64,000 bases of DNA from an uncultured Flavobacteriales bacterium (GTDB lineage Bacteria > Bacteroidota > Bacteroidia > Flavobacteriales_D > Crocinitomicaceae). A program made the position numbers and the translations under genes. Numbering within the stretch: the first letter of the stretch is position 1; the number at the start of each line of letters is the position of its first letter. The notes below the pieces were generated by a model, which saw nothing but the letters and a program-made list of their open reading frames with translations, was not told the origin of the DNA and ran no database searches. Below, in pieces: positions 4,566 to 14,535 of this stretch. The DNA lies in the NCBI GenBank assembly GCA_913054135.1, contig CAJXJK010000006.1, positions 124,001 to 188,000 of the forward strand. The letters run 5' to 3'.

Positions 4566-5126
4566 TTACAGTTTTTCTCTTTCGTAGGCTACATCACAAC
4601 GATCTTCGGCCAAACTTTCAATCATAGCCTGCTCGGTAACATCTTTAATCTCTCTATCAAGCACTTCAGATATCTGCCTTCTCATTTTTTTAAGAATCTT
4701 ACCGTCATAAAAACGTCTCATATCATCATTAGATTCCAGGATTAATCGAGGAACCGTCATCAGTGAGCCGTCTTCATTCTTTGCAACCATTGTAAAGTAA
4801 CAAGAGTTGGTATGCTTTTCGATTCCAGTCTTTGGCTTCAACGAAACCACTCTTATACCTACAATCATTGATGAGTTCCCTACATAATTGATTGATGCTG
4901 CCAAACTAACTAATTCACCTACTTCTACGGGCTCTTTAAACTCAACACCATCAACTGATACAGTTACACAGTAGGCTCCTGAATGCTTTGATGCACAAAC
5001 GTAGGCCACCTTATCCATAAGTGACAATAAAAGACCTCCATGCACCTTGCCCGAAAAATTGGCAAAAGATGGAATCATTAATTCTGTAATGGTTGTTCTT
5101 GAATAGTCTACCGTTCTAGCTTCCAT
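4566..5126 (-). CDS. Acyl-CoA thioesterase (hotdog fold)
   Basis: 186 residues. Hydrolyses acyl-CoA to free acid and CoA. The hotdog signature is clear: NFSGKVHGGLLLSLMDKVAYVCA at residues 23-45, with Asn23, the HGG turn (29-31) and Asp38 at the positions used by YciA/BACH-type enzymes. The C-terminal 60 residues are a charged helical tail longer than in single-domain YciA. It lies 37 nt after the DUF6495-like gene on the same strand and is probably co-transcribed with it. Chain-length preference cannot be read from the sequence. Confidence 0.88.
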   Translation of the reverse strand: MEARTVDYSRTTITELMIPSFANFSGKVHGGLLLSLMDKVAYVCASKHSGAYCVTVSVDGVEFKEPVEVGELVSLAASINYVGNSSMIVGIRVVSLKPKTGIEKHTNSCYFTMVAKNEDGSLMTVPRLILESNDDMRRFYDGKILKKMRRQISEVLDREIKDVTEQAMIESLAEDRCDVAYEREKL

Positions 5127-5163
5127 AATGATTATAGTTTTTTTCTAAAGATAAAAAATTCGC

Positions 5164-5628
5164 CTAATCTTGAACGGCAGCTAACATAAGAGCTTTAAAA
5201 AGGTCTCCCTCTGATATATAATAACCTATCTCAGTAAGCTTGTATAACTCCTCTTCTCTTTTTCCTTCATAAGACTTCTCAGCCGAATGAATTTCAAACT
5301 CTTTATAGTCAATTGTTGTCCAATCTACACTTTGCAAATCTAAGTCAGGGTTCTTAGTAGATAGAGCTACCATAACCATTTTGTCTTCTAAGCACTGAAT
5401 AGCCTGAACATATGACTTTCGTTTGATTTGCAAAAACTTTGCAGACCTCATTATTTTTTCAAAAACTACATCAGAAAATAAATCGACAATTTGCTGGGCA
5501 GCTTCAGGCTTTTCATCCAACATCTTTTTCCAATCATCTGCTGCTATACCATTCACAACCAAATACTTCACGAACTCATCTTCAAAGCTCTGTAGTTCCT
5601 CATTATTTAATAGTCTGTACTTTGTCAT
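5164..5628 (-). CDS. DUF6495-like protein
   Basis: 154 residues, cytosolic. The start TKYRLLNNEELQSFEDEFVKYLVVNGIAADDW and the segment QQIVDLFSDVVFEKIM match what I recall of DUF6495, a small conserved Bacteroidota family of unknown function. No catalytic motif or membrane segment is visible. First gene of a probable pair with the thioesterase. Confidence 0.72.
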   Translation of the reverse strand: MTKYRLLNNEELQSFEDEFVKYLVVNGIAADDWKKMLDEKPEAAQQIVDLFSDVVFEKIMRSAKFLQIKRKSYVQAIQCLEDKMVMVALSTKNPDLDLQSVDWTTIDYKEFEIHSAEKSYEGKREEELYKLTEIGYYISEGDLFKALMLAAVQD

Positions 5629-13414: not shown

Positions 13415-13430
13415 GCACGTAGTTTTTCAT

Positions 13431-13593
13431 AAATTGTCATTTCGTAGAAGGTTAAATAAGTAGTTGTCATTTCGAGCGTAGTCGAGAAATCTGATAAAGC
13501 GTTTCGTAAGGCTTTGGCAGATTTCTCCATTCCACTTTGTTTCAGTCGAAATGACAATCTTCGAAGTCAGAACTTCGCTCGAAATGACAATTT
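13431..13593. repeat. Nested palindromic TTGTCATTTCG element
   Basis: Four copies of a TTGTCATTTCG core in two nested inverted pairs. Outer arms: 13431-13444 and 13580-13593, 14 bp perfect. Inner arms: TTGTCATTTCGA at 13464-13475 and its complement at 13546-13557, 12 bp perfect, extended by GAGAAATCT (13484-13492) and AGATTTCTC (13520-13528). The outer right arm, read on the minus strand, continues GAGCGAA, nearly the same as the inner left arm (GAGCGTA). This arrangement is a REP-like dispersed intergenic palindrome I recall from Bacteroidota genomes. No other full copy was seen here. The inner hairpin would place about 95 nt in one fold. Confidence 0.85.
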
Positions 13594-13624
13594 ATTAATT
13601 CACCTTGAATTAATTGCATTTAAG

Positions 13625-13915
13625 ATGAACTACAACTATTTCATTTACATACTCAGCAATAAAAATCGTTCTACACTTTACATTGGTGTCACAAACAACA
13701 TTCTTAAAAGGATTGAAGAACACAAGCTTACAAAATCAGGATTTGCGTATAGATATAATTGCTTTGACTTAGTGTATTACGAACACTTCACGCAAATTGA
13801 ACATGCAATTTCAAGAGAAAAGCAAATCAAGAAATGGAGCAGAATTAAAAAGAACAACCTAATTAAATCTAAAAATCCAGACTTATTAAATTTAATTAAT
13901 GATCTTAAGCATTAA
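13625..13915 (+). CDS. Single-domain GIY-YIG nuclease
   Basis: 96 residues from the ATG at 13625. A compact GIY-YIG domain of the YhbQ/UvrC-N type: FIYIL (5-9), LYIGVT (18-23), then ILKRIEEH with Arg29 and His33, and SREKQIKKW with Glu65, the expected catalytic set. Such proteins cut DNA; cellular roles of the free-standing ones are mostly unknown. The frame stays open upstream to 13514 through the palindromic repeat, but those residues merely translate the repeat (RNDN twice), so I place the start after it. The gene begins 32 nt after the palindrome, an arrangement reminiscent of REP elements and their RAYT transposases (inference). Confidence 0.9.
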   Translation: MNYNYFIYILSNKNRSTLYIGVTNNILKRIEEHKLTKSGFAYRYNCFDLVYYEHFTQIEHAISREKQIKKWSRIKKNNLIKSKNPDLLNLINDLKH

Positions 13916-13929
13916 ACATTATTAGAATA

Positions 13930-14535
13930 ATGCAAACTAAATCGTCTTTCATCCTTAGTTTTTTAACGCTTGCGATAATAATTGTATCAAGCTTACTAGG
14001 ATATCTTGACGTTATCTCTGCCCTATTCTACTTTGTTGGCGAAATTGCTGTAATGGTTATCATCACAATGATAATGCATATTCAATTTGGTAATATTTTC
14101 AAAGCAATTCAAATTGGAATCATGTCGATTTTCCCTCTTGCTATGGGATACCTACTGGCCTACTTCCCAGTTATCTTCTTAGATCACGTTGACCTAGCAC
14201 TTAGAAATGAAGTTTACGATTCGAGTCAGTTTCTACCTTATATGCTCAAAATCACATGGCCATTTATATTAATCAGATTAATCACTTCTGTAGCGGCTTA
14301 CTTTTTAATTCCTAAAGATATCCGTGAAGAAACTGTGATGAACAACCTGTTTACTCCGATATTTCTAATATTAGGAATTGGGGTCACCAACATTGCTTTG
14401 CTTAATTTCTTTGACGGCGTTTTAACAGCCAATATTATTCTGATTGTTATTCTATCAATCAGATTCATAGTCGAATTGATTCAGTACAAATCTATTTTGG
14501 GTATTGGTTTAAGGAAACAAAAAAAGCAGCCCTAA
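13930..14535 (+). CDS. Integral membrane protein, unknown function
   Basis: 201 residues, five or six membrane helices: about 8-25, 30-50, 58-80, 107-128, 140-163 and 164-184, with a basic tail (RKQKKQP). No family recognised and no signature motif. It begins 14 nt after the GIY-YIG stop and may be co-transcribed. Its stop codon lies in the loop of a terminator hairpin. Confidence 0.75.
   Translation: MQTKSSFILSFLTLAIIIVSSLLGYLDVISALFYFVGEIAVMVIITMIMHIQFGNIFKAIQIGIMSIFPLAMGYLLAYFPVIFLDHVDLALRNEVYDSSQFLPYMLKITWPFILIRLITSVAAYFLIPKDIREETVMNNLFTPIFLILGIGVTNIALLNFFDGVLTANIILIVILSIRFIVELIQYKSILGIGLRKQKKQP

Follow-up and report, generated by a model that had tools for sequence, protein, structure and literature searches.

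The REPIN/RAYT systems combine REPs tagged with GTAG with a HuH Y1 transposase, TnpA-REP. Free-standing GIY-YIG nucleases are familiar as homing endonucleases (e.g. the Seg proteins of phage T4 and I-TevI); the GIY-YIG enzymes are hydrolytic nucleases and are not known to join DNA. Another REP super-family was surveyed by Di Nocera et al. (2013): the available sections describe REPs tagged with CGTC (or TGTC), with a stem starting in AT, arranged as head-to-head dimers and present in five phyla, and include among them Neisseria dRS3 and Rickettsia RPE-4/RPE-6 (PMC3733652). According to these sections, the CGTC REPs "apparently lack a dedicated transposase" and their associations with other transposases are only fortuitous (PMC3733652). 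The prokaryotic Slx1-like proteins are portrayed, in the available part of a 2006 study, as repair-like, conserved and mostly vertically descended (PMC1564403). No work joining GIY-YIG to REPs was found among the literature matches listed (open-licence titles and starts of abstracts), and GIY-YIG was unmentioned in the available parts of PMC12306157 and PMC5896051.

The DNA analysed here (the window) is a stretch of 64,000 nucleotides from an uncultured Flavobacteriales bacterium. Its repeat element and nuclease gene comprise the following features:

13429..13444, + strand: outer half-REP 1 (ATAAATTGTCATTTCG), the left outer arm (from the sequence; 16-bp inverted match to 13580-13595)
13464..13492, + strand: REP 2, TTGTCATTTCGAGCGTAGTCGAGAAATCT, with a TGTC tag and the stem ATTTC/GAAAT (structural REP, script search)
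13464..13557, no strand assigned: inner REPIN-like inverted REP pair, 94 bp (reading, fold and script)
13519..13557, - strand: REP 3, TTGTCATTTCGACTG..GGAGAAATCT (structural REP, script search)
13580..13595, - strand: outer half-REP 4, the right outer arm (from the sequence; inverted match to the left arm)
13625..13915, + strand: single-domain GIY-YIG nuclease gene, 96 aa, clade B, UPF0213/prokaryotic Slx1-like (Pfam, tree, AlphaFold2 and PDB match)

The first-pass annotation of this DNA had described a nested inverted repeat of four copies, and TTGTCATTTCG was indeed found in four exact copies, two per strand: 13434-13444 (+), 13464-13474 (+), 13547-13557 (-) and 13580-13590 (-). Its inner arm length of 12 bp was recovered by reading, but the outer perfect arms, given as 14 bp, measured 16 bp (13429-13444/13580-13595); copies 2 and 4 pair as well, over 15 bp. 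With one mismatch allowed, the whole window contained 8 matches to TTGTCATTTCG (2.18 expected), a count reached by none of 100 shuffles. Folded as DNA, the repeat stretch gave -41.3 kcal/mol (shuffle mean -15.5, z -8.85). The core starts of the inner pair lie 81 bp apart, within the 67-144 bp range of the listed gene-free +/- pairs of the REP-rich genomes described below.

The 96-residue ORF, confirmed at 13625-13915 as a single-domain GIY-YIG protein, matched PF01541 (Pfam, E 2.4e-17), and its AlphaFold2 model (pLDDT 94.2) consisted of one GIY-YIG domain. The nearest solved structures in a profile search were 1zg2 (BH0048, E 8.6e-10) and 1ywl (EF2693, E 9.2e-7). With Foldseek, 1zg2 was the sole match below E 0.001 (E 9.8e-5, TM 0.59-0.60), followed by chains of the structure-selective nuclease Slx1 (E 0.011 and up). 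Tyr8, Tyr19, Gly21, Arg29, His33 and Glu65 were invariant across 37 proteins, as was Asn84 in protein alignment A2, and the genes were under purifying selection (median dN/dS 0.113, none above 1, in the 19 pairs passing filters). The frame had been said to run through the repeat. Upstream of the gene it stays open as far as about 13460 (151 codons) and covers part of the repeat; the start codon ATG, however, comes only beyond the repeat, so that a fusion of repeat and protein is not indicated. A tblastn search of 50,697 phage records gave no match at E 1e-5.

The nested REPs upstream of the window gene are partly degenerate, no REPs were found downstream of it, and the genome is almost without further copies. 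The hairpins, previously called dispersed, are not so in their own genome: across 24 contigs (4.05 Mb) there are only five occurrences of TTGTCATTTCGA, three of these in the window element and one within a long ORF, and the window copy is nearly solitary. Among the GIY-YIG genes of that genome, five are solo, one of them interrupted by an in-frame stop, and two encode longer proteins (about 620 and 460 residues). Copies were few in the window's family despite the nuclease: six in genome G000, against four for the reversed-pattern control, and none in G065, although that genome had three strong clade-B matches. The window copy looks like an old or a recent arrival. The neighbouring 201-aa frame (13930-14535) matched none of the other 58 genomes in the relatives search, and synteny was therefore unusable for finding an empty version of the window locus.

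For the comparison of nuclease loci, 80 were fetched from genome contigs by protein similarity, using an alignment of six related proteins as query: of at least 593 matching stretches, 583 passed confirmation and the best 80 were taken by protein score. The six seeds had been picked after palindromes were noticed beside several of them, and the seed choice was thus not blind. When the k-mers of the 400-bp flanks were compared with those of DNA more than 1.5 kb off, the top enriched 10-mer was the window motif GTCATTTCGA, present near the gene in 30/80 loci (61 kb) and far from it in 10/80 (505 kb, eightfold the near sequence). Related 10-mers came next (TGTCATTCTG, 20 vs 4 loci; GTCATCCTGA, 14 vs 6, of the same 80). 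Motif density was 5.3/kb upstream and 4.8/kb downstream in the first 250 bp, a distance within which 62 of the 80 loci carried the motif, and 0.0-0.4/kb in bins covering 1 to 3.5 kb.

The repeat variants share one rule, GTCAT-xyz...x'y'z'-ATC, in which a change of xyz is accompanied by a matching change of its partner (16 xyz types in the clade-B set). The complementary AT at stem positions 1-2 is part of the structural definition used here (GTC-AT...AT-C); the next three stem pairs covary relative to a permuted-partner control. A structural REP lay within 400 bp of 105/135 clade-B genes (72 of 95 in a first set and 33 of 40 in the genus Mucilaginibacter) and was absent from that distance in 30/135; the loci are related, so these counts are non-independent events. 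The 95 genes include the six seeds and the window gene, and the 40 further loci, from the genus of the Mucilaginibacter locus L138, were hand-chosen, partly for having 0-3 TTC-core copies per genome; two of the 40 with a frame broken early were nevertheless counted. In the two sets (95 and 40 genes), density was 3.5 and 3.9/kb near the gene and 0.16 and 0.18/kb far from it, and permuted partners yielded 0.25 and 0.17/kb near it, 14 and 23 times below the real partner. A compact unit (median 429 bp, tags outward) is seen at 33/135 genes, whose nearest repeats face inward as a pair. This (+,-) orientation was the commonest among two-sided genes (33/74), yet the side marginals predict about 30 (by hand), and we therefore give the inward unit as a description and claim no rule.

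Such proximity might arise if REPs and small nuclease genes shared intergenic space, with recombination between REPs carrying the gene along. REPs are extragenic and the far controls contain coding DNA, which accounts for part of the enrichment: in DNA outside ORFs of 100 codons, clade-B flanks held 5.59 REPs/kb and far DNA 0.78/kb, lowering the near/far ratio from about 22 (all DNA) to about 7. We regard this passive explanation as the most improbable of those considered, given the sevenfold enrichment left among intergenic bases, the sister clades that occupy similar intergenic space with no REP in 85 genes, the Y1 transposase genes of the same genus (1/50 with a REP) and the co-clustering of REP variant and nuclease, all detailed below.

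The tree comprised 180 of 182 solo GIY-YIG ORFs, from 173 of 181 loci (L044, L074, L098, L160, L166, L188, L194 and L225 were without an ORF at the cut-off; in an early reading of solo GIY-YIG regions, the regex had left out 11/61). It resolved three groups, with SH-like support of 90 (A), 99 (B) and 96 (C) from few columns. Structural REPs within 400 bp were confined to clade B, at the 105/135 genes given above vs 0/46 in clade A and 0/39 in clade C. At the same distance, motif B (GTCATYYYGA) accompanied 66/95 genes of clade B, 2/46 of clade A and 1/39 of clade C, and motif A (CTGAG-N3-6-TCGAAG) 4/95, 20/46 and 0/39, respectively (Fisher, motif B in clade B vs A and C, p=4.9e-22; motif A, 1.7e-10). 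Within the window's family and order, motif B was at this distance in 8/16, 2/45 and 1/37 genes and motif A in 0/16, 20/45 and 0/37 (clades B, A, C). The A-only and B-only labels required two changes on the tree. Control regions around UvrC or fused genes (19 regions, 191 kb) contained motif B at 0.010/kb and motif A at 0/kb. No REPs were found in the intergenic flanks of clades A and C, where far intergenic DNA held 0.40 and 0.41/kb.

Nuclease subclades track REP variants. The xyz label changed 28 times on the clade-B nuclease tree, against a minimum of 53 in 200 shuffles, and 7 times among the Mucilaginibacter-genus rows, against a minimum of 11 in 500 shuffles. This test used 103/135 rows, after exclusion of 26 rows that had no label, 4 whose xyz was rare and two short frames, and a looser rule was applied for xyz=.GC. 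In the seven genomes with 0-3 TTC-core copies whose loci were printed, the nuclease lay beside another variant (TGC, GCC or GCT). That GIY-YIG genes sit beside copies more often than by chance, a check suggested in the first-pass annotation, is borne out by the k-mers, by the clade-specific association and by this co-clustering; the repeat and the gene are real, and their association is beyond chance.

The sister clades had surroundings of their own. Clade A (YYTGST) genes were accompanied by a second palindrome, CTGAG-N3-6-TCGAAG, at 1.51/kb near and 0.014/kb far (e.g. L043, L047, L050, which is own-genome locus L006, and L068, as well as L010 of the own genome by eye). With ARAGORN, 26/39 clade-C genes had a tRNA no more than 400 bp away, vs 0/46 in clade A and 0/95 in clade B; examples are L071 (tRNA-Asp), L086 (tRNA-Asn), L073 (tRNA-Ala), L085 (tRNA-Val) and L061 (tRNA-Phe). 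At the clade-C loci read, the 3' end of the tRNA or a terminator was duplicated across the gene, sometimes with gene remnants. A solo GIY-YIG gene in L087 (near 4979-5261) stands at the 5' end of a gene named rfbB-like by eye, the start of which is duplicated over 29 bp. Some solo GIY-YIG genes (L042, L054, L086, L088, L095 and others) lie a few hundred bases from the ends of draft contigs, as expected since repeats break assemblies.

Clade-B nuclease and REP type co-occur mainly in Bacteroidota, with examples in other phyla. Among named clade-B loci, a structural REP was present in 55/65 from Bacteroidota, 3/6 from Bacillota, 1/1 each from Melainabacteria and Thermotogota, 0/3 from Fidelibacterota, 0/1 from Chlorobiota and 1/2 without a phylum; outside Bacteroidota (including the two without a phylum) this is 6/14 genes, a small sample. 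In a plasmid collection (33 matching records), a structural CGTC/TGTC REP lay within 400-450 bp of the gene in 9/12 records read; among the others, Novosphingobium and Sphingobium had related tagged palindromes (by eye) and one Rhizobium had none. The unpaired tag at one end (CGTC, TGTC or CCTC) was TGTC in the window and the Bacteroidota loci read and CGTC in Azospirillum, Sinorhizobium, Shinella, Rhizobium and Aeromonas. By eye, the rhizobial and Azospirillum copies fit the stem of 8-9 bp, loop of 4-5 nt and CCA tail that mark the CGTC super-family; REP 2 of the window is short-stemmed. Inverted pairs and multiple copies abound in the Mucilaginibacter-genus genomes, and the window genome is low in copies. 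Azospirillum lipoferum 4B and Sinorhizobium meliloti, both named in the available sections of the 2013 survey (PMC3733652), carry the gene beside CGTC/TGTC REPs.

Two plasmid settings are recorded here for their neighbours. In A. lipoferum 4B (L418, 4001-4294) the nuclease gene and CGTC REPs lie between sufB and sufC, and in a Planktothrix agardhii plasmid (L425, 3995-4279) a REP-flanked nuclease gene has an MmeI-type restriction gene on one side and the DISARM gene drmA on the other.

Genome-wide copies were counted in the genus Mucilaginibacter. One 30-bp REP was present in 57, 39 and 52 copies in three genomes and in 0-1 copies in seven other genomes checked (reversed-pattern control: 0). 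Core copies reached 232 in the REP-rich genomes, where most were gene-less and many were paired in inverted orientation like REPINs, with spacings of 67-144 bp by reading of the listed copies. In G263, 110 core copies stood against 4 matches to nuclease profile A1, so that copies far outnumber nuclease genes, as REP copies likewise outnumber RAYTs. Copy number weakly tracks nuclease presence: the median of TGTCATTTCGA was 31 in 69 genomes with a clade-B match (E<1e-20) vs 23 in 11 without (p=0.055), and six of these 11 had 23-72 copies. The copies were not distributed independently of GIY-YIG genes, though they outnumber them in REP-rich genomes.

Y1 transposases were present in the 80 genomes searched with PF01797. 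A structural REP lay within 400 bp of 1/30 strong IS200-like Y1 genes and 0/20 weak RAYT-like ones, vs 33/40 clade-B GIY-YIG genes (Fisher, GIY-YIG vs Y1, 1.3e-16); "RAYT-like" denotes weak PF01797 matches in ORFs of 176-223 aa, 20 of which were chosen from the list. No REP was found in four strong-Y1 loci scanned over the whole locus. Seven genomes without a PF01797 match held 0, 5, 29, 7, 165, 52 and 0 copies of TGTCATTTCGA. The enzyme beside these REPs is, as proposed earlier, unrelated to RAYT. In all, 1/50 Y1 genes of the same genus had a REP nearby.

When relatives were compared, the same sites were seen empty, with REPINs only and with REPINs plus gene. Between engB and ubiA, two genomes had REPIN-gene-REPIN, a relative with 98% identical EngB lacked the gene and had three REPIN-like inverted pairs, one of them degenerate, another genome had a single REPIN of another variant, and in yet another engB and ubiA were 2 bp apart; the nuclease motif was found in 2/30 engB loci (whole loci, L294 ending early). 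Between prmC and xerD, REP-gene-REP was present in one genome and two REPINs in a relative whose PrmC is 92% identical and which gave no strong clade-B match; two others were empty (nuclease motif in 1/30 loci, 10/30 loci read). Across syntenic blocks of 130-140 kb, G350 had more REPINs, which were missing from G347. Differences in presence and absence, which the first-pass annotation had suggested looking for, were thus seen. No clean target-site duplication appeared in the junctions read, where aligned flanks were about 75-97% identical (most 84-92%) and the intergenic flanks were too diverged for target-site duplications to be readable.

At three engB-ubiA loci (L291, L292 and L296), a DUF559 endonuclease gene adjoined CCCCTCTC[AG]AGAGGGG-type palindromes (DUF559 by Pfam for L292; the L291 frame is short), perhaps another pair of small nuclease and palindrome.

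The gene could also have homed into REPs: REPs would be spread by another process and serve as target only, the nuclease would cut a REP or REPIN, and the gene would be copied in by recombination without the nuclease dispersing any REPs. Several observations are consistent with this. Flanking direct repeats (score >14) were frequent in all three clades (A, 30/45; B, 54/93; C, 24/36; shifted controls, 10/323), as expected if a target were duplicated around an inserted gene; the tRNA genes beside clade C (26/39) are presumably not dispersed by its nuclease; REPs persist in genomes without a strong clade-B match; and at engB-ubiA the gene stands between two REPINs in two genomes, a close relative having REPINs alone. 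We nevertheless consider homing, the chief rival of the reading preferred below, rather unlikely. Y1 genes, the sole alternative enzyme type tested, were beside REPs in 1/50 cases, and the available sections of the 2013 survey call the associations with other transposases merely fortuitous (PMC3733652); nuclease subclades track the REP variant, and the inward REP-gene-REP units look like an autonomous form from which REPINs could derive.

In a regulatory explanation, the hairpins would attenuate or terminate transcription of the nuclease gene, whose product would be an ordinary repair enzyme. REPs often lie near the start codon, the repeat stretch of the window folds strongly, and a repair role has been proposed for prokaryotic Slx1-like proteins, for which the available part of the 2006 study favours conservation and mostly vertical descent (PMC1564403). 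REPs on both sides of the gene, their dispersal genome-wide away from the nuclease, and the variable presence of gene and REPIN at fixed sites make this explanation very improbable.

The reading that we prefer is that the nuclease acts on the REP hairpin and disperses both REPINs and its own REP-gene-REP unit via host repair, which we hold to be probable. The nuclease would bind the REP hairpin, as single-stranded DNA or a cruciform, in the manner of the structure-selective Slx1, and cut at or near it; host repair would then copy REPINs or the REP-gene-REP unit into new or cognate sites, and gene-less REPINs would be the non-autonomous (MITE-like) form. Insertion would have to fall to host repair, since GIY-YIG enzymes are not known to join DNA. 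On the comparative sequence data the clade-B nuclease is a strong candidate for the enzyme behind the widespread CGTC/TGTC palindromic repeats, and the window is likely to hold one copy of a widespread two-part genetic element made of a minimal clade-B GIY-YIG gene and CGTC/TGTC-tagged hairpin REPs. For the REP/RAYT-like pairing of a palindrome with an unrelated GIY-YIG enzyme, as the first-pass annotation put it, the comparative data give strong support; its proposal as a whole is supported in part.

A broader proposal, which we make tentatively and rate at somewhat less than an even chance, is that solo GIY-YIG nucleases are minimal mobile elements with a nuclease of about 95 residues as their sole protein, the clade setting the target: CGTC/TGTC REPs for clade B (as the missing mobilising enzyme, with REP-gene-REP as the autonomous form and REPINs derived from it), CTGAG...TCGAAG palindromes for clade A, and tRNA genes and gene ends for clade C. 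If so, a hydrolytic nuclease would spread DNA with no DDE, tyrosine, serine or HuH transposase involved. If the nuclease mobilises REPs, REP-type elements would have arisen at least twice, with unrelated enzymes, and some genes annotated as "excinuclease ABC subunit C" or "GIY-YIG nuclease family protein" would be parts of mobile elements and not repair genes. What spreads the CGTC REPs was left open in the available sections of the 2013 survey that defined them in five phyla (PMC3733652), and one clade-specific enzyme candidate makes this question directly testable.

Compared with the known systems, the element resembles the GIY-YIG homing endonucleases in that the nuclease gene is present or absent at its target, as seen here from filled and empty sites, and differs from them in its single domain without a separate DNA-binding module and in its proposed target, a palindromic repeat. 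The protein belongs with UPF0213/prokaryotic Slx1-like proteins as a single-domain GIY-YIG akin to 1zg2 and 1ywl, but it looks mobile and is REP-linked, whereas the available text on that family describes it as repair-like and vertical (PMC1564403). With REPIN/RAYT systems it shares hairpin REPs, inverted pairs and one small DNA-processing enzyme gene adjoining copies; its enzyme, however, is GIY-YIG and not HuH/Y1, the window tag is TGTC and not GTAG, and RAYT-like genes of the same genus had these REPs in 0/20 cases. The repeats themselves resemble the CGTC REPs in the CGTC/TGTC tag, the AT stem start and the occurrence in several phyla including Bacteroidetes, and probably also in the inverted pairs and the intergenic location (PMC3733652, available sections). 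REP 2 of the window departs from these in its 5-bp perfect stem without a CCA tail, and where the available sections of the 2013 survey present the repeats without an associated enzyme (PMC3733652), here a GIY-YIG clade is attached to them.
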